Assembly (NCBI RefSeq): GCF_004362865.1
Contig: NZ_SNYI01000002.1
Location: forward strand, 62,001-126,000
Length of the DNA: 64,000 nt
Reading direction: 5' to 3'
From: Zeaxanthinibacter enoshimensis
GTDB taxonomy: Bacteria; Bacteroidota; Bacteroidia; Flavobacteriales; Flavobacteriaceae
Made by a program: the position numbers and the translations under genes. The notes under the pieces were generated by a model. That model had not been told where the DNA came from. It made no database searches and saw only the letters and a program-made list of their open reading frames with translations. This document shows positions 5,111-19,504 of the stretch, one piece after another. Numbering within the stretch: the first letter of the stretch is position 1; every line of letters begins with the position of its first letter.

Positions 5111-5135
5111 TACCAGTTCATTACCACATTGAAAG

Positions 5136-5238
5136 GTTATCAAGAAAGGTGGAGGGAATAGACCCTGTGAAACCTTAGCAACCCTTTATCTTTAAAGAAG
5201 GTGCTACATTCTATCCCGTACAGACGGGAATAGATAAC
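5136..5238 (+). promoter_or_regulatory. SAM-I (S-box) riboswitch
   Basis: The P1 stem is GTTATC (5136-5141) with GATAAC (5233-5238). Between them lie the S-box signatures: AAGAAAGGTGGAGGGA, then CCTGTGAAACCTTAGCAACC, and AAGGTGCTACATTC in the right order. P4 can form from the ATTCTATCCCGT-ACAGACGGGAATAG region. The element sits about 80 bases ahead of the split methionine synthase, so high SAM should lower expression of metH and metF. I see no clear rho-independent terminator between it and the start codon, so control may act on translation or by a weaker terminator. Confidence 0.93.
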
Positions 5239-5318
5239 AAAAAGAAAGGACTCCCTGTCCGTTCCCATCCCTGTCTTGATATATCCTTTCCTTGCTAAAT
5301 ACATTAAGAATTAGCTGT

Positions 5319-6338
5319 ATGAGTAGGATAGAAGATATTTTAAAAAAACGCATCCTGGTTCTGGATGGTGCCATGGGTACCATGCTTCAACGCTATAAAT
5401 TTGAAGAAAAGGACTTCCGGGGGGAGCGTTTTAAAGACTGGCCCAGCGACCTGCAGGGGAACAATGACCTGCTTTCCCTCACCCAGCCGGATGCTATTGC
5501 AGACATCCACAGGAAATATTTTGAAGCGGGGGCAGATATCGTGGAAACCAACACCTTCTCAGGCACCAGTATTGCCATGGCTGATTACGGGATGGAATCC
5601 CTGGTATACGAACTGAACTACGAATCAGCTCGTATCGCCCGCGAGGTCGCGGACGAATTCACCCGTAAGGATCCGGAGAAACCCCGTTTTGTCGCAGGGA
5701 GTATTGGTCCTACCAATAAAACGGCCAGTATGTCGCCCGATGTGAACGACCCTGGATTCAGGGCTGTTTCTTTCGAGGAACTAAAGGTGGCATACCGGGA
5801 ACAGGCAGAAGCTCTGCTGGAAGGAGGAGTAGACCTGCTTCTCGTGGAAACCGTCTTTGATACCCTGAATGCCAAAGCTGCCCTCTTTGCCATCGAAGAG
5901 GTAAAAGAGGAAAAAGGTTCTGATGTCCCCGTCATGATTAGTGGTACTATAACAGATGCCTCGGGGCGTACCTTGTCCGGTCAGACCGCGGAGGCTTTCC
6001 TCATCTCCGTTTCGCATATCCCGATTCTTTCTATCGGTTTTAACTGTGCCCTAGGAGCCAGTCAACTGGTACCCCACCTGGAAGTCTTGTCAGCAAGGAC
6101 CCGGGCAGCGGTTTCTGCCCACCCCAATGCGGGACTTCCCAACGCCTTTGGTGCCTACGATCAGTCGGCCCGGCAAATGGCAGACCAGATCAGGGAATAC
6201 CTGGAAAAGAGCCTGGTGAATATAGTGGGCGGTTGCTGTGGCACCACCCCCGAACACATCAAAGCCATCGCAGAACTTTCTGCGCAATATAAACCCAGAC
6301 CCTTTAGCCCGGTGTCTGATAAAGTAATACATCAGTAA
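5319..6338 (+). CDS. metH: methionine synthase, homocysteine-binding domain subunit (split MetH, N part)
   Basis: The 339-residue protein is the homocysteine S-methyltransferase barrel, which in most organisms is the first domain of cobalamin-dependent Met[13 protein letters not shown] opens the barrel, and the zinc ligands are C243 (GFNCALG) and C306-C307 (GGCCGTT). The start was set at the ATG at 5319 (MSRIEDIL); an in-frame upstream ATG at 5292 would add only nine residues of weak similarity. It is followed after one base by the gene for the remaining MetH domains, so the two polypeptides probably act as one enzyme. It is under the SAM-I riboswitch. An alternative role as a stand-alone homocysteine methyltransferase is less likely given the neighbour. 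Confidence 0.88.
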
Positions 6339-6339
6339 T

Positions 6340-9102
6340 ATGGGCAAAGATCCAGCAGTACATACCAAAACCGGTGCCACGGAAGCTCCGCGCTATTTAA
6401 AATTATCCGGGTTGGAACCCCTGGTGGTCACCCCCGAAAGCAATTTCGTAAACGTAGGGGAACGCACCAACGTGGCCGGGTCCCGGAAATTCCTGAGGCT
6501 GATCAAAGAGGACAGGTTTGAAGAAGCCCTCGAAATTGCCAGGGAACAGGTAGAAGGAGGGGCCCAGATCATTGATATTAACATGGATGATGGCCTGATC
6601 GACGGGAAAGAAGCCATGGTCCGGTTCCTGAACCTGGTGGTTGCTGAACCTGATATTGCCCGGGTTCCCATTATGATCGACAGTTCTAAATGGGAGATCA
6701 TAGAGGCCGGCTTGCAGGTGGTGCAGGGAAAATGCGTTGTGAACTCCATCAGCCTGAAAGAAGGAGAAGAAGAATTCCTGCGGCAGGCAAAACTCATCCG
6801 GCGTTACGGTGCGGCCGTCATCGTCATGGCTTTTGACGAGGTCGGACAGGCAGATAATTACGAGAGACGGATAGAGATTGCGAAGCGTTCTTACGAACTC
6901 CTGACAGAGAAGGCGAATTTTCCGCCTGAGGATATCATTTTTGACCTGAATGTTTTCCCCGTCGCCACAGGGATGGAAGAGCATAAGAGGAACGCGCTCG
7001 ATTTTATCGAGGCTACCGCCTGGGTACGCCAGAATTTACCGTACTGCAGCGTCAGCGGGGGGGTCAGTAATGTATCCTTCAGTTTCAGGGGAAACAATCC
7101 CGTGCGCGAGGCTATGCATTCCGTTTTCCTGTACCACGCCATCCAGGCAGGAATGAATATTGGCATAGTAAACCCTACTATGCTCGAAGTTTATGACGAT
7201 ATCCCGCCAGAACTGCTGGAGAAAGTAGAAGACGTGATCCTTAACCGGCGGGATGATGCGACAGAACGGCTGCTCGAATTTGCGGAGACCGTGGTGGGCA
7301 AGGCCCGGGAAAACAAGACCGATCTCAGCTGGAGGGAAGAACCCCTGCAATCCCGTATCACAAGGGCCCTGGTTAAAGGTATAGACCAGTATATAGAAGA
7401 AGACGTGGAGGAAGCCAGGCAAAATGCCAAGCGGCCGATCGAAGTCATTGAAGGGCAGCTGATGACGGGGATGAACGTGGTGGGAGATCTTTTTGGAAGT
7501 GGAAAAATGTTCCTTCCCCAGGTGGTGAAGTCGGCGAGGGTCATGAAGAAGGCAGTAGCTTACCTGCTGCCTTACATAGAGGAAGAGAAGAAATCCTTAC
7601 CACTGGCAGAACAGGGGAATGGAAATAACGGTAAGATCCTGATGGCGACCGTGAAAGGTGATGTCCATGATATCGGGAAGAATATCGTAAGTGTGGTCCT
7701 GGCGTGTAATAATTACGAGATCGTTGACCTGGGAGTAATGGTGCCCCCGGAAAAGATCATTCAAAAAGCCAAAGAAGAACAGGTAGATGTGATCGGGCTT
7801 AGTGGGCTGATCACCCCTTCCCTGGACGAGATGGTCTTTTTGGCCAAAGAAATGGAACGGCAGGGCTTCACGGTGCCTTTGTTGATCGGCGGAGCTACGA
7901 CCAGTAAGGCGCATACCGCGGTGAAGATAGACCCGCAGTACAGTTCGGCCGTGGTGCATGTCAATGATGCATCCCGTGCCGTGACCGTCGTGGGAGACCT
8001 GCTTCAGAAAGAGCATTCGGCCCGCTACAAATCTGAACTTAAACTGGATTACGAATCCTTCAGGGAGAAATTTCTGAAGAGGGGCAAACAGAAAGAGTAC
8101 CTGGATATCCGTGATGCCAGGGAAAACAAGTTCCGTATTGATTGGGAAAAGGATTCCCTGGTGGCGCCTGAGCAACCCGGCATACATGTCCTGGAGAACC
8201 AGGCCCTGGAGCCCTTGCTGGAATTTATTGACTGGACCCCTTTTTTCAGGAGCTGGGACCTGCATGGAAAATACCCGCAGATCCTCGACGATGAAGTGGT
8301 AGGGGCGCAGGCACGCGAACTCTTTGAGGATGCCCAGCTGATCTTGAAACGCATCCTGCAGGAGAAGCTGCTCAAGGCCAAAGCAGTGTGGGGGATCTTC
8401 CCGGCCAATACGGTAGCCGATGATGATATCAAAGTAGTTGTGCCCGAAGAGCTGCGTAAGGAAACCGGGAGTGATACCCTCACCTTCCACACCCTGAGAC
8501 AGCAGCTGAAGAAGAGGGCTGGGGTGCCCAATTTTGCCCTGGCCGACTTTATTGTACCTGAGAGCAGTGGCCTCCGGGACCATATTGGCTGCTTCTGTGT
8601 GACTACAGGCTTTGGTACCCAGGAGCTGGCCTCAAAATTTGAGGAAGAACTGGACGATTATAACTCGATCATGGTCAAAGCCCTGGCAGACCGCCTTGCG
8701 GAAGCATTCGCAGAATACCTGCACCGGGAAGTCCGCAAGAAATACTGGGGATACAGCGCTGCTGAGAGCCTGGACAACAATGCCCTGATCGCAGAAGAAT
8801 ATTGCGGAATCAGGCCGGCGCCCGGCTACCCTGCCTGCCCGGACCACCTGGAAAAGAAGACGATCTGGAAGTTGCTGCAGGTAGAAGAGAGGATAGGGGT
8901 GACCCTGACAGAAAGCCTCGCCATGTGGCCTGCGGCCAGTGTGAGCGGCTATTACTTTGCACACCCGGAATCACGGTATTTCGGGGTTGGGAAAATTACG
9001 GAACAGCAACTCGCCGATTATGCAAACAGGAAAGGAATAGCGCTGGAAGAGGCCAGGAAATGGCTGGCACCTAACCTGGCCGAAGAAACCGATCAGAAAT
9101 AA
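6340..9102 (+). CDS. metH: methionine synthase, folate/cobalamin/activation domains (split MetH, C part)
   Basis: The 920 residues cover the methyltetrahydrofolate-binding pterin barrel (about 25-290), the cobalamin cap and B12 domain (about 330-570), and the C-terminal SAM-dependent reactivation domain (about 600-915). The cobalamin ligand is H443 in GDVHDIGKN, followed by the conserved [13 protein letters not shown]. The reactivation domain shows [12 protein letters not shown] and ends in the family's usual way. It lacks only the homocysteine barrel, which the preceding gene encodes. The ATG begins one base after the upstream stop, which implies coupled translation and equal amounts. The product regenerates methionine from homocysteine. 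Confidence 0.93.
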
Positions 9103-15121: not shown

Positions 15122-15281
15122 AACAAAAGCGGGCAGCGGTTAGCCGGTTTTTATACCTACCGCTGTATTCCATTATTCTCAATACCCCTGTATTTTTATA
15201 ATAGATATTTCAAAAAATGTCAGGATGAAACCGGAATTCAAAAAAAAACATAGCAAAAGATGGTCATGTAAATTTAATAAG

Positions 15282-15289
15282 TACCTTAG
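15282..15289 (+). promoter_or_regulatory. possible -7 promoter element of the aromatic operon leader
   Basis: TACCTTAG differs from TAnnTTTG at one position and lies 18 bases before the leader peptide ATG. The rest of 15122-15307, between gldA and the leader, is AT-rich with several A runs and no other feature that I can name. Confidence 0.3.
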
Positions 15290-15307
15290 TCAGAGATTAC
15301 AACGACT

Positions 15308-15379
15308 ATGACACGCACGTATTTCTGGAACCGTTTCTATTTTTACTTCTTTTACCAAAGAGGTGCGGGACTGTTCTAG
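15308..15379 (+). CDS. aromatic-rich leader peptide of the pheA operon
   Basis: This short frame encodes 23 residues, of which 11 are aromatic (six Phe, four Tyr, one Trp); residues 5-16 read YFWNRFYFYFFY. It begins with ATG and ends with TAG directly before a terminator that precedes the prephenate dehydratase gene. The pattern is that of the enterobacterial pheL and trpL leader peptides, where ribosome stalling at scarce charged tRNA blocks terminator formation. The peptide itself probably has no function once made. It is too short to show in ordinary gene finding. The call rests on composition, position and the matching RNA structures; nothing was measured. Confidence 0.85.
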   Translation: MTRTYFWNRFYFYFFYQRGAGLF

Positions 15380-15434
15380 TATATGGTAATACACTATATG
15401 ATAAAGTCCCGATAAAAATCGGGACTTTTTTTTT
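15366..15434 (+). terminator. transcription attenuator of the aromatic operon
   Basis: The terminator has a perfect 10-bp stem, AAGTCCCGAT (15404-15413) with ATCGGGACTT (15418-15427), a 4-base loop and a run of nine T (15426-15434). Its 5' arm can pair instead with CGGGACT (15366-15372), giving a 7-bp antiterminator with AGTCCCG (15405-15411). The upstream strand of that antiterminator lies in the last codons of the leader peptide. A ribosome that reaches the TAG at 15377 would cover it and let the terminator form; one stalled in the aromatic codons would leave it free. GTGCG (15363-15367) could also pair with CGCAC (15314-15318) as a weak protecting hairpin. Confidence 0.85.
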
Positions 15435-15490
15435 ACCGTCACCGGAAATTAGCAACGTGCTGAAAGGACACAACAGATTACAAGTAATAA

Positions 15491-16318
15491 GTGGGAAAAC
15501 GAATTGCAATACAAGGAATTAAAGGGTCTAACCACCACCAGGTGGCTAGCCAGTATTTTGATCAAGGCATAGAACTGGTTGAGTGCATGTCTTTTGATTC
15601 GCTAGTGGGTCATCTCCTGGATGGTACTGCGGACCAGGGGGTAATGGCCATAGAGAATTCGATTGCCGGCTCTATCCTGCCTAACTATAACCTTGTTTAC
15701 AGGCACCAGCTGCATATCATAGGGGAGCACTACCTGAATATCCATCATCACCTGATGGGTCTTAATGGCCAAAGCCTGGAGGAGATCGCCGAAGTACATT
15801 CGCACCCTATGGCACTCTTACAGTGTATGGACTTCCTGGGAGGGCATCCGCATCTGAAACTGGTAGAAGATGTGGATACGGCCGAAACGGCCCGTCGCAT
15901 CCAGCAGGGACAGCTGAAAGGGATCGCCGCAATAGCCCCCAGGATGGCAGCAGAATTGTATGGGCTATCGATTATTGAAGACGAGATACAGACCATCAAG
16001 AATAACGCTACGCGCTTTATCATCGTCAAAACAAGGAACAAGGAATGGCCTAAGGAAGAGATCAACAAGGCTTCCCTGAGGTTCATTACAGATCATAAAA
16101 GAGGAAGTCTTGCAACGGTGCTGAACGTTATGAGCGATTGCAACCTGAACCTGACCAAGATCCAATCCCTCCCGGTTATTGAATCCCCGTGGAAATACGC
16201 CTTTTTCGTGGATGTAACCTTTGAAGAGTACAGGAATTTTGAAAAGGCCAAGGCCTTATTGGGAATCATGTCCGAGGATTTCAGGGTACTTGGAGAATAT
16301 AAAAATGCAAAACCATGA
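15491..16318 (+). CDS. pheA: prephenate dehydratase
   Basis: The 275-residue enzyme converts prephenate to phenylpyruvate in phenylalanine synthesis. The N-terminal catalytic domain has GIKGSNHHQVA near residue 10 and the catalytic TRF at 174-176; a C-terminal ACT domain (about 190-270) carries ITDHKRGSLATVLNV and should bind phenylalanine for feedback inhibition. No chorismate mutase domain is attached. The start is GTG at 15491, directly after an in-frame TAA, so no longer start is possible. It is the first structural gene after the attenuator. Confidence 0.92.
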   Translation: MGKRIAIQGIKGSNHHQVASQYFDQGIELVECMSFDSLVGHLLDGTADQGVMAIENSIAGSILPNYNLVYRHQLHIIGEHYLNIHHHLMGLNGQSLEEIAEVHSHPMALLQCMDFLGGHPHLKLVEDVDTAETARRIQQGQLKGIAAIAPRMAAELYGLSIIEDEIQTIKNNATRFIIVKTRNKEWPKEEINKASLRFITDHKRGSLATVLNVMSDCNLNLTKIQSLPVIESPWKYAFFVDVTFEEYRNFEKAKALLGIMSEDFRVLGEYKNAKP

Positions 16319-17460
16319 TTAGTACTGCAGATCGTTTACATACCGTAGAGGAATACTACTTCTCCAGGAAACTGCGGGAGGTCAGGGAATTGATCAGTGA
16401 AGGTAAACCTATCATCAATATGGGGATCGGCAGCCCGGATCTTGCTCCCTCGCCGGAAGTGTTGCAAACCCTTACCACGGCCATGACAGAACCCGGTGCC
16501 CACCAGTACCAGAGTTACCAGGGGCTCCCGGAACTGAGGGAGGCAGTAGCGCGATTCTATACCGAGAAATTTGGGGTCGATATGGATCCTGCCAAAGAGA
16601 TCCTGCCCCTTATGGGGTCTAAGGAAGGGATCATGCACATCAGTCTCGCTTTCCTGAATGCAGGAGACGAGGTTTTGATCCCTAACCCGGGTTACCCGAC
16701 ATACAGTTCTGTCACCAGGTTGGTAGGGGCGGTGGCCCGGACCTACGAGTTGTCCGAGTCACGGGGATGGTTCCCGGACTTAGAGGCCCTGGAAAAGCAG
16801 GACCTGCAAAAGGTAAAACTGATGTGGGTGAGCTATCCCCATATGCCTACCGGGGCCATGGCGAGCAGGGAGCAATTTGAAGCCCTGGTCGAATTTGCCA
16901 AAAGGAACCGCATCTTGCTGGTCAATGATAATCCTTACAGTTTTGTGCTGGGGAAAGATCCGCTGAGCCTTTTGTCTGTAAAAGGGGCTAAAGAAATCTC
17001 CCTGGAACTGAATTCCCTGAGTAAAACCTTTAATATGGCCGGGTGGAGAGTAGGAATGGTCCTGGGGAACGATAAGCATATCAATGCAATTCTCAAGGTG
17101 AAAAGCAATATGGATTCAGGGATGTTCTACGGGATACAGAAAGGAGCAATTGCTGCACTGAACAGTGGAAAAATTTGGTTTGAACAGCTGGATGCCATTT
17201 ACCAGAAGCGCAGGCAGCTGCTATGCCAGCTGGCGGATAAATTAGGGTGTACGTATGACCCTGAAGCCGTGGGCATGTTCATCTGGGCGCGATTGCCCGA
17301 AGGGGCAGGTAATTCAGAAGCATTCATAGACAAGATACTTCTGGAAAAGCACCTGTTCATCGCACCGGGAACCATTTTCGGAAGTTGCGGGGAGGGCTAT
17401 ATCCGTTTCTCACTGTGCGTCCCAGAAGAAAAGATCAGAGAAGCAATAAAAAGAATATAG
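16315..17460 (+). CDS. class I/II aminotransferase, probably aromatic
   Basis: This 381-residue PLP enzyme has the Schiff-base lysine K237 in SLSKTFNMAGWR, the family segment PNPGYPTY near residue 123 and a C-terminal IRFSLCVP with the substrate carboxylate-binding Arg. Its place between prephenate dehydratase and prephenate dehydrogenase suggests that it transaminates phenylpyruvate and hydroxyphenylpyruvate. The fold alone does not fix specificity; aspartate, alanine or diaminopimelate-related activity is possible. The ATG overlaps the pheA stop (ATGA). Confidence 0.85.
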   Translation: MISTADRLHTVEEYYFSRKLREVRELISEGKPIINMGIGSPDLAPSPEVLQTLTTAMTEPGAHQYQSYQGLPELREAVARFYTEKFGVDMDPAKEILPLMGSKEGIMHISLAFLNAGDEVLIPNPGYPTYSSVTRLVGAVARTYELSESRGWFPDLEALEKQDLQKVKLMWVSYPHMPTGAMASREQFEALVEFAKRNRILLVNDNPYSFVLGKDPLSLLSVKGAKEISLELNSLSKTFNMAGWRVGMVLGNDKHINAILKVKSNMDSGMFYGIQKGAIAALNSGKIWFEQLDAIYQKRRQLLCQLADKLGCTYDPEAVGMFIWARLPEGAGNSEAFIDKILLEKHLFIAPGTIFGSCGEGYIRFSLCVPEEKIREAIKRI

Positions 17461-17473
17461 AGAAAGAGAAAAC

Positions 17474-18337
17474 ATGAATGTATTCATCATAGGAATTGGA
17501 CTGATCGGGGGGTCTTACGCCCGGGATATCAGGCAGATAAGGCCTGGCTGTCGTATCTTTGGGATCGATGCTGATCCTGAACACCTGCAGCAGGCATTGT
17601 CCATGGACCTGATAGACGAAGCTGCCACCTACGGGGACCTGGTGAAGGCAGACCTGGTATTGGTCAGTATACCGGTAGATGCCCTGGTCCGCGAGTTACC
17701 GGTTATCCTGGATTCCATAGGGGAACAGACCCTGGTACTGGATGCAGGTTCTACCAAGAACCTGGTCTGCAAGGCGGTGGAAGATCATGACAACAGGAGG
17801 AACTTCCTGGCCTGTCATCCAATTGCCGGTACAGAGTTCAGCGGGCCCTCCGCAGCCATCTCCGGTCTGTACCAGGGGAAGACCAATATCATCTGCGAAG
17901 TTGAGAAAACGGCCTTCAAATTACAGGAGAGAGCACTGGACCTGTTCAGGGACCTGGGAATGAGAATACGGTACATGAACCCCGATGCCCATGATAAGCA
18001 TATTGCTTATGTTTCCCACCTCTCCCATATCAGTTCATTTATGCTTGGGAAGACGGTAATCGAAAAGGAGAAGAACGAACGGGACATCTTTGATATGGCA
18101 GGCAGTGGATTTGAAAGTACAGTGCGGCTGGCGAAGAGTTCCCCGGCCATGTGGACGCCAATATTCCGGCAGAACAAGGAATACGTCCTGGAAATACTGA
18201 ATGAATATATAGCCAACCTGGAAGGGTTCAAGGCCCAGATGCTGGCCGACGATTTTGATGGCATTTACCGGGAGATGGACAATACGAATAAGATCAGGGA
18301 GATCCTGGACGGGATACCCCTGAACAAAGTGAAATAA
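17474..18337 (+). CDS. tyrA: prephenate dehydrogenase
   Basis: The 287-residue protein converts prephenate to 4-hydroxyphenylpyruvate for tyrosine synthesis, using NAD(P)+. It has the Rossmann motif GIGLIGGSYA at residues 7-16, the active-site region CHPIAGTEFSGP near 115 and the helical segment HDKHIAYVSHLSH near 177. No ACT or chorismate mutase domain is attached. It starts 13 bases after the aminotransferase gene, in the same operon. Confidence 0.92.
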   Translation: MNVFIIGIGLIGGSYARDIRQIRPGCRIFGIDADPEHLQQALSMDLIDEAATYGDLVKADLVLVSIPVDALVRELPVILDSIGEQTLVLDAGSTKNLVCKAVEDHDNRRNFLACHPIAGTEFSGPSAAISGLYQGKTNIICEVEKTAFKLQERALDLFRDLGMRIRYMNPDAHDKHIAYVSHLSHISSFMLGKTVIEKEKNERDIFDMAGSGFESTVRLAKSSPAMWTPIFRQNKEYVLEILNEYIANLEGFKAQMLADDFDGIYREMDNTNKIREILDGIPLNKVK

Positions 18338-18397: not shown

Positions 18398-19504
18398 GTG
18401 GAAAATTCAAAAGAGTTAAGATCATGGTTAGATGAGATGGCATTATCCCATCCCCTGGTAATCGCAGGACCATGCAGCGCGGAAACAGAAGAGCAGGTGT
18501 TGCGCATTGCACATGAGCTCAAGGATACCGATGTTAATTATTACCGTGCAGGTATCTGGAAACCGCGTACCCGTCCCGGGAACTTTGAAGGGGTAGGCGC
18601 CATCGGCTTAAAGTGGCTGAAGAAGGTCAAGGAAGAGACAGGGTTGAAGACCGCTACGGAGGTTGCCAATAAGACCCATGTAGACCTGGCCCTGGAGCAC
18701 GATGTGGACCTGCTGTGGATAGGGGCCCGTTCTACCGTGAGCCCGTTTATCATTCAGGAGATCGCCGACGCCCTTGAGGGAACGGATAAGATCGTCCTGG
18801 TGAAGAACCCTGTAAACCCTGACCTTTCCCTTTGGCTTGGGGCTGTAGAAAGGCTTCATAAGGCGGGAATAAAGAAACTTGGGGTGATCCACCGCGGCTT
18901 CTCTACCTATGAAAAGACCAAATACAGGAATATCCCGGAATGGCAGCTGGCGATCGAATTGCAGACGCGCTTCCCGGACCTGCCTTTGATCAATGACCCA
19001 TCACACATCACGGGGAAGAGAGACATGATCTTTGATGTATCCCAGACCGCGCTCGATCTCAATTTCGACGGGCTGATGATAGAGACCCATCACGATCCGG
19101 ACAATGCCTGGAGCGATGCTGCACAACAAGTTACGCCACAGAAACTGGTACAGATCATGAAAGACCTCCGTATCCGTAAAGAGACTGACGAAGAAACCGA
19201 ATACAAGAACAGCCTGAGCAACTGCCGCGCCCAGATCGATATCCTGGATAACCAGCTGATCGAGACCCTTGGAAAAAGGATGAAGGTAGCAGACCAGATC
19301 GGGGAACTGAAGAAACAGCGGAATGTCGCCGTACTGCAGACCAACCGCTGGAATGCCATCCTGGGTAAAATGATCCTGGAAGGCGAGAGTAAGGGGCTTA
19401 GTGAAGAATTTGTTTTAAAAATGTTCAAGGCAATCCACCAGGAATCCATCAACCACCAGGAGAAGATCGTCAATGCTGCCAAAGCAGAGGTAGTGCAGAA
19501 ATAG
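18398..19504 (+). CDS. bifunctional DAHP synthase / chorismate mutase
   Basis: The 368 residues hold an AroG-beta/KdsA-type 3-deoxy-7-phosphoheptulonate synthase (about 1-265; motifs VIAGPCSAE, AGIWKPRTRPGNFEG, INDPSHITGKRD) and a C-terminal AroQ chorismate mutase (about 275-365; RAQIDILDNQLIETLGKRM). The product thus controls both entry to the shikimate pathway and the branch to prephenate. The mutase half is where such fusions usually sense prephenate or chorismate. The start is GTG at 18398. It is the last gene of the operon and supplies the chorismate mutase that pheA and tyrA here lack. Confidence 0.92.
   Translation: MENSKELRSWLDEMALSHPLVIAGPCSAETEEQVLRIAHELKDTDVNYYRAGIWKPRTRPGNFEGVGAIGLKWLKKVKEETGLKTATEVANKTHVDLALEHDVDLLWIGARSTVSPFIIQEIADALEGTDKIVLVKNPVNPDLSLWLGAVERLHKAGIKKLGVIHRGFSTYEKTKYRNIPEWQLAIELQTRFPDLPLINDPSHITGKRDMIFDVSQTALDLNFDGLMIETHHDPDNAWSDAAQQVTPQKLVQIMKDLRIRKETDEETEYKNSLSNCRAQIDILDNQLIETLGKRMKVADQIGELKKQRNVAVLQTNRWNAILGKMILEGESKGLSEEFVLKMFKAIHQESINHQEKIVNAAKAEVVQK

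Follow-up and report, generated by a model that had tools for sequence, protein, structure and literature searches.

Within the window, by which we mean the whole stretch of 64,000 nucleotides of Zeaxanthinibacter enoshimensis DNA that was analyzed, the genes pheA, an aminotransferase, tyrA and a DAHP synthase fused to chorismate mutase follow one another on the forward strand, preceded by a short frame rich in aromatic codons and a putative intrinsic terminator. The features, in order of position, are:

15261..15263, + strand: possible promoter -33 element, weak; TGG (TTG in many relatives), 18 bases 5' of the -7 box
15282..15289, + strand: -7 box of the promoter, TACCTTAG, similar to TAnnTTTG of Bacteroidetes and conserved in close relatives
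15308..15379, + strand: gene of the leader peptide MTRTYFWNRFYFYFFYQRGAGLF, stop TAG; conserved in relatives
15325..15337, + strand: strand 1, which pairs with 15367-15379 and spans the codons from Trp7-Asn8 onward
15366..15372, + strand: strand 2, the 5' arm of the predicted antiterminator, CGGGACT, in codons 20-22
15403..15434, + strand: intrinsic terminator, an 11-bp stem plus nine T; 95.8% of cells paired
15405..15411, + strand: strand 3, AGTCCCG, which pairs with strand 2 in the antiterminator and with strand 4 in the terminator
15420..15426, + strand: strand 4, CGGGACT, the 3' arm of the terminator
15491..16318, + strand: pheA, prephenate dehydratase, GTG start; Pfam PF00800 at 194 bits, over its cut-off, the best NCBIfam models being below theirs
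16315..17460, + strand: aminotransferase of the operon; the 25 best of 72 models are aminotransferases, all below their cut-offs
17474..18337, + strand: tyrA, prephenate dehydrogenase; NF006307 at 375 bits, over its cut-off
18398..19504, + strand: DAHP synthase fused to chorismate mutase; both kinds of model match, one per half, below their cut-offs

Direct reading of the window placed the leader ATG at 15308 and the end of its TAG stop codon at 15379, giving the peptide MTRTYFWNRFYFYFFYQRGAGLF, with aromatic codons at 11 of its 23 positions and the core YFWNRFYFYFFY. The first-pass annotation had this frame correct to the base. It had also described a 10-bp terminator with nine T beginning 24 bases behind the stop codon, which holds when the stem is taken as 10 bp; we counted 11 pairs (15403-15428, loop of 4), leaving an interval of 23 bases, followed by the T run that reaches 15434 (nine T in total). 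The alternative pairing that it had proposed is likewise there to be read, as CGGGACT (15366-15372) and AGTCCCG (15405-15411) are both present and complementary over 7 bp, and the upstream strand, sitting in codons 20-22, does overlap the last codons of the peptide. Beyond that annotation, we found a third pairing, 1:2, which joins 15325-15337 to 15367-15379. The leader as a whole folded with a z-score of -3.8, and none of 200 shuffles was equally stable. The operon also held what had been claimed for it, with the DAHP synthase-chorismate mutase and both branch enzymes encoded between 15491 and 19504; among 20 diverse operons that we read, the DAHP synthase-chorismate mutase lay behind pheA in all 20 and tyrA in 15.

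Upstream of the frame, a TAnnTT[T/A]G box occurred in 97 of 108 close relatives versus 15 of 108 shuffled sequences, mostly 25-27 bases 5' of the leader ATG, and transcription in the window would accordingly start at about 15295, with a leader 5' region of about 12 bases. A -33 element was weak: among 94 relatives with the box, TTG stood 17-18 bases upstream in 40 and TGG 16-19 bases upstream in 13. The full promoter TTG N17-23 TAnnTTTG was found in 0 of the 108 close relatives, where the box reads TAnnTTAG. Elsewhere in the window, a SAM riboswitch (5134-5240, + strand, 83 bits) lies directly 5' of two frames (5292-6338 and 6340-9102) that look like a predicted split methionine synthase.

The aromatic run is not rare by itself. 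An 18-base aromatic pattern occurred seven times in the genome, twice at the leader, and its reversed control nine times; with the control at least as frequent, we dropped the run as stand-alone evidence, and the remaining matches of the pattern, inspected by eye, showed no leader with a terminator. We built a covariance model from 94 close relatives, with this leader among them; it gave a single match at E <= 0.001 in the genome, at this leader (126.6 bits), and no second copy of the element was found among the 150 of 1662 first-look candidates that were scored.

Upon comparing pheA loci across the Flavobacteriaceae, we found all parts of the element together in 193 of 200, a count that includes repeats of the same genomes because two of the searches (30 and 80 loci) overlap. 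The criteria for this were a leader in which 14 residues include 6 or more aromatics, a terminator downstream of it and a strand 2 with a pairing score of at least 7 located 4-16 nt behind the aromatic run. None of 34 control regions taken from upstream of hisG (10), ilvD (12) and trpE (12) had this combination, nor did any of 200 sequences made by single-base shuffling of the last 350 upstream bases. The upstream DNA came from 120 of the 270 family genomes with pheA, hand-picked to comprise the 30 top matches, 40 with intermediate identity and 50 weaker ones, and from a contig search represented by the best 80 of at least 577 confirmed matches. Among the best 80 loci examined, all 79 close loci with more than 158 bases upstream carried the aromatic-rich frame and the terminator, and in the remaining one (L103) the contig begins inside the leader, the rest of the frame being visible. 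In the diverged family loci (L111-L200), the aromatic frame was present in 88 of 90, and a script placed a terminator between leader and first gene in 197 of the 200 family loci. The seven family loci that failed comprised L166 and L178, which have no leader, L103, cut by the contig end, and L160, L180, L188 and L197, in which leader and terminator are present and the cut-off for pairing or spacing failed. Relatives without an aromatic frame, which the first-pass annotation had named as the observation to look for against its proposal, thus numbered only 2 of 200 inside the family (L166 and L178), while 42 of 73 loci outside it fell short of the full set.

The pattern of substitutions bears the signature of a coding frame. 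In the alignment of 94 distinct sequences from 110 close loci (A1, which is made up of loci other than L103 and L057, the latter missed by the regular expression), codons 6, 10 and 12 vary in the third base between T and C while the residue stays Phe, and at codons 5, 7, 11, 13 and 16 Phe, Tyr and Trp interchange among relatives. Codons 13-14 (15344-15349) are nearly frozen, with TAC for Tyr13 in 82 of 94 and TTC for Phe14 in 94 of 94, the other aromatic codons varying at the third base. This fits a hairpin 1:2 in which they pair with codons behind the aromatic run.

Base pairing in the two competing structures was maintained through substitution. For the terminator 3:4, 95.8% of cells were paired across the 94 relatives, with both sides changed in 8 of 11 pairs and 0 of 500 shuffles as high; for the antiterminator 2:3, 96.5% of cells were paired, with a double change in 4 of 7 pairs (4 cells) and again 0 of 500 shuffles as high. 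Slid controls had far fewer cells paired than the true register, although by the count of double-changed cells alone some exceeded it, with 8 cells versus the true 4 for pairing 2:3 in two of six slid controls (in fewer pairs) and 22 versus 17 for pairing 3:4 in one. Pairing 1:2 was paired in 91.3% of cells versus 40-54% in slid controls (94 close relatives), and its covariation was modest, with 4 double-changed pairs versus 3.0 in shuffles and 134 of 500 shuffles reaching that number. Among diverged loci, the terminator arm occurs as GTCCCG, GTCTCG, GTCCTG, ACCCGG, ATCCCG and GCCTCG, and strand 2 changes accordingly, pairing best with its own class in each of the six. When strand 2 was scored against its own terminator arm in 87 diverged loci, the mean pairing score was 10.34 versus 7.56 for permuted arms (sd 0.20), and none of 2000 permutations, the highest of which was 8.24, reached the true value, a statistic in which sequence kinship remains. 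Strands 2, 3 and 4 show three-strand covariation in these sequence comparisons, which bring out the predicted pairings 2:3 and 3:4 with their common strand as well as the coding frame. The alignment of relatives that the first-pass annotation had called for thus revealed, within the family, the aromatic codons, the terminator and double changes in both pairings.

We found the spacing between the aromatic run and strand 2 to be tightly kept. Upon measuring it in the 173 of 197 loci with a helix score of at least 9, the gap from the last aromatic codon to strand 2 had a median of 10 nt and an sd of 1.9, with strand 2 beginning 9-11 nt behind that codon in 150 of 173 loci, whereas its distance to the stop codon had an sd of 4.1 and ranged from -8 to +25. 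We then folded the transcript in the state preceding synthesis of strand 4 and masked positions -18 to +12 from the A site to represent a ribosome, the front edge of +12 bases being the value from E. coli. In the window, the probability of pairing 2:3 was 0.86-0.99 with the A site at codons 1-16, up to Tyr16, and at most 0.002 from codon 17 onward (0.002 at Gln17). Across the 173 loci, the last permissive codon coincided with the last aromatic codon in 128 and lay within one codon of it in 167. The position of the ribosome on the aromatic run is decisive; the stop codon floats.

Equilibrium folding of the whole leader was uninformative as a test, since once strand 4 exists the terminator always wins wherever the ribosome stands, with a probability of about 0.99 or higher. 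In the transcript that still lacks strand 4, pairing 2:3 prevails both in the absence of a ribosome and when a ribosome occupies codons 1-3 (probability 0.98-0.99). Taken together, these two results mean that the model requires a kinetic order of events and a fast 1:2 hairpin. A protecting 1:2 hairpin has a known logic, as it blocks the antiterminator when the leader is untranslated.

We suggest, at a probability of roughly 0.9 and from sequence evidence, that the element is a ribosome-mediated transcription attenuator of the pheA-aminotransferase-tyrA-DAHP synthase/chorismate mutase operon. Transcription would begin near 15295, and a ribosome would follow RNA polymerase, translating the leader. 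If charged tRNA-Phe and tRNA-Tyr, and perhaps tRNA-Trp as well, were in ample supply, the ribosome would pass codon 16 and cover strand 2, so that strand 3 would pair with strand 4 and transcription would stop near 15434. Were an aromatic aminoacyl-tRNA short, the ribosome would stall on one of codons 5-7 or 10-16 with its front edge ending just 5' of 15366; strand 2 would stay free and pair with strand 3 while strand 4 has yet to be transcribed, and the polymerase would continue into the operon. Within this scheme we infer that the leader is translated and that termination occurs and is regulated, as well as the part played by pairing 1:2 and the identity of the amino acids sensed; the spacing rule itself is established by the comparison of loci. 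Features that mark the attenuator class are present here, namely an upstream frame rich in codons for the products of the pathway, a terminator before the first gene and an antiterminator that shares a strand with it, and the folding calculations supply a further one, that a ribosome on the regulatory codons would free the antiterminator strand and one past them would mask it. The proposal of the first-pass annotation that stalling on aromatic codons chooses between antiterminator and terminator is, on this comparative evidence, strongly supported.

Other mechanisms would produce some of the same features. Strand 2 might be freed by nascent-peptide arrest, in which free Phe or Tyr or another ligand causes the peptide to block the ribosome tunnel, for which TnaC is the model. 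The recognizable core YFWNGFYFYFFF in close relatives and the sharp switch codon would agree with this, but arrest peptides usually require fixed residues, and the core residues swap among Phe, Tyr and Trp while the peptide differs widely between families; the near-frozen TAC 13 and TTC 14 are explicable by RNA pairing with the codons behind the run. We regard peptide arrest as very improbable. Slightly more improbable still is a constitutive terminator that happens to lie by an unrelated short frame, serving as the end of a small RNA or giving a fixed level of read-through with no translational control: conservation across families of the frame, the spacing and the match of strand 2 with strand 3 speaks against it, even though the aromatic run alone was no commoner in the genome than its reversed control.

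A structured 5' region with a terminator could also belong to a metabolite riboswitch or a T-box that senses the amino acid or the tRNA directly. Here, what is conserved is the codon pattern, and Rfam matches of the region, whether at the gathering threshold or at E up to 10, included no such family; the T-box model in particular gave no match in the window or in 15250-15500 (E up to 10). The chance of direct sensing is, in our view, close to negligible, and we retain ribosome-mediated attenuation as the reading of the element.

The composition of the leaders points to more than one sensed amino acid. The aromatic runs of the 197 family leaders contain 1159 Phe, 584 Tyr and 136 Trp; every one of the 197 has both Phe and Tyr, and 135 have Trp. 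For comparison, the long frames of the window have 4.45% Phe, 3.97% Tyr and 0.75% Trp, so that the Trp share of the aromatics is about the same in leaders (7.2%) as in these frames (8.2%). The earlier suggestion that more than one aromatic tRNA is sensed is supported to this extent, by composition only. A loss of Tyr codons where the operon lacks tyrA was not borne out, as the leaders of the 5 of 20 diverse operons without tyrA (L341, L346, L348, L350 and L352, none with a tyrA match) retain theirs. These observations would suit a sensor that serves DAHP synthase-chorismate mutase, the entry enzyme common to the branches. Tentatively, and at somewhat less than even odds, a single leader may act as an OR gate for the charging of Phe, Tyr and, in most leaders, Trp tRNA, a shortage of any one opening the operon; with the same reservation, the operon so gated would hold the shared entry enzyme together with the Phe and Tyr branch enzymes, under a leader found in many Bacteroidia families.

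Beyond the Flavobacteriaceae, 31 of 73 loci, from 14 of 25 families of the order and class, passed the full set of criteria, with leaders such as MKLFNTYYFGYFYYFSKSRG and MNTFATYFFFFFYYFYFSNEVKREFVYVR; one of them (L251, family f17) appears weak. The class-level sample was drawn from genomes other than G375, G399, G436, G470, G486 and G516. The 42 failing loci fall mostly into three larger groups, ten in f4 (PheA 30-34% identical), nine in f15 (0.6-Mb genomes) and seven in f26, the rest being four in f14, two each in f30, f29 and f45, and one each in six families. In f14 and f30, the frames are shorter, with 5 aromatics, below the cut-off of 6; four of these loci (L209, L210, L250 and L268) have a terminator and a complementary strand behind the short frame, and L211 has the same short frame but a different one was selected in scoring. 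For the two f45 loci (L273 and L275), the leader is present and the script found no terminator. Two f15 loci of the 0.6-Mb genomes (L217 and L219) keep frames such as KLFFTFNFYFDSANKEKE upstream of pheA, without a terminator behind it in L217, and these are possible relics of the leader in reduced genomes. At the level of the phylum, outside the class, L386 and L391 have aromatic frames upstream of pheA, and no comparable aromatic frame was seen at L392-L396, where PheA is more distant. The genomes of L386 and L391 carry a Bacteroidia-like PheA (43-44% identity), which, together with the aromatic frame, was perhaps acquired by transfer.

Classical attenuation requires a ribosome close behind RNA polymerase on an efficiently initiated leader. 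Bacteroidia ribosomes, as stated in PMC9976891, do not recognize Shine-Dalgarno sequences. Conservation of a three-strand attenuator across many families of the class would provide genetic evidence for a first round of translation that stays near the polymerase, and the leader offers a ready reporter for measuring the closeness of translation and polymerase in Bacteroidia. The spacing rule, by which strand 2 follows the last regulatory codon at ~10 nt, could further be used to seek more leaders in the phylum.

The nearest known system is pheL-pheA of E. coli (Rfam RF01859, Phe_leader), which likewise has an aromatic leader peptide and a terminator before pheA, with a gap of 8 nt from the last Phe codon to strand 2 versus 10 in the window. 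In the same folding, the probability of pairing 2:3 in E. coli K-12 pheL was 0 at codons 1-3, 0.38 at codon 4, 0.995-1.0 at codons 5-13, 0.71 at the last Phe (14) and 0.06 after it. The late edge of the switch is thus alike, as both leaders lose the antiterminator once the ribosome leaves the last aromatic or Phe codon, whereas the early block, by which a ribosome on codons 1-3 stops pairing 2:3 through pairing 1:2, was seen in pheL and not in the folding of the window. The E. coli leader has Phe codons only and precedes pheA alone, while that of the window has Phe and Tyr (and Trp) codons before an operon with tyrA and the DAHP synthase-chorismate mutase, and, unlike in pheL, its strand 2 lies within the coding frame. 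The Rfam model RF01859 gave 22.5 bits over 15307-15434, below its threshold of 55 bits.

In the same phylum, Bacteroid-trp (RF01692, titled "Bacteroidete tryptophan peptide leader RNA" in Rfam and tabulated in PMC2864571) shares the leader peptide and terminator, but has Trp codons (WWW), another operon and another sequence. It matched the trpE leader of this genome at 75.5 bits (threshold 49 bits) and did not match the pheA leader in the window, nor in 15250-15500 at E up to 10. That Trp leader, MKISTVHTWWWKNLRQTS, lies before trpE (L311, G000:C2 near 246748) and is followed by a terminator, as is, by eye, a His leader, MRNQITHHHFYTCPQAS, before hisG (L286, G000:C2 near 1003883), which had no Rfam match at the gathering threshold; no Ile/Leu/Val leader was seen before ilvD of this genome. 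The His (HHH) and Trp leaders resemble the pheA leader in combining a short frame with a terminator, but each carries codons for one amino acid and precedes another operon.

The first-pass annotation knew of no established description in this phylum, a view that the match of RF01692 to the trpE leader and the literature correct. An earlier survey (PMC2965389) listed such peptides for Proteobacteria, Actinobacteria and, as a new finding, Firmicutes only. For Bacteroides thetaiotaomicron, 5' regions with short frames resembling leader peptides have been mentioned (PMC7366714), and work on Flavobacterium psychrophilum from 2021 (PMC9723704) gave strong clues for leader-peptide attenuation before amino-acid operons and named a conserved 5' element ahead of pheA that also occurs in other Flavobacteriaceae genera and has no Rfam match. 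Both are structured 5' regions of pheA, and the element of the window is presumably the same as theirs. Section 19 of PMC9723704 gives no sequence, peptide or pairing for it and does not state pheA as a leader-peptide case; the literature searched yielded no fuller description of the pheA leader, of which the supplement of that paper, outside the search, may hold part. Overall, this is a known kind of element, to which the present analysis contributes the leader peptide, the three RNA pairings with their covariation, the spacing rule and the distribution across many families.
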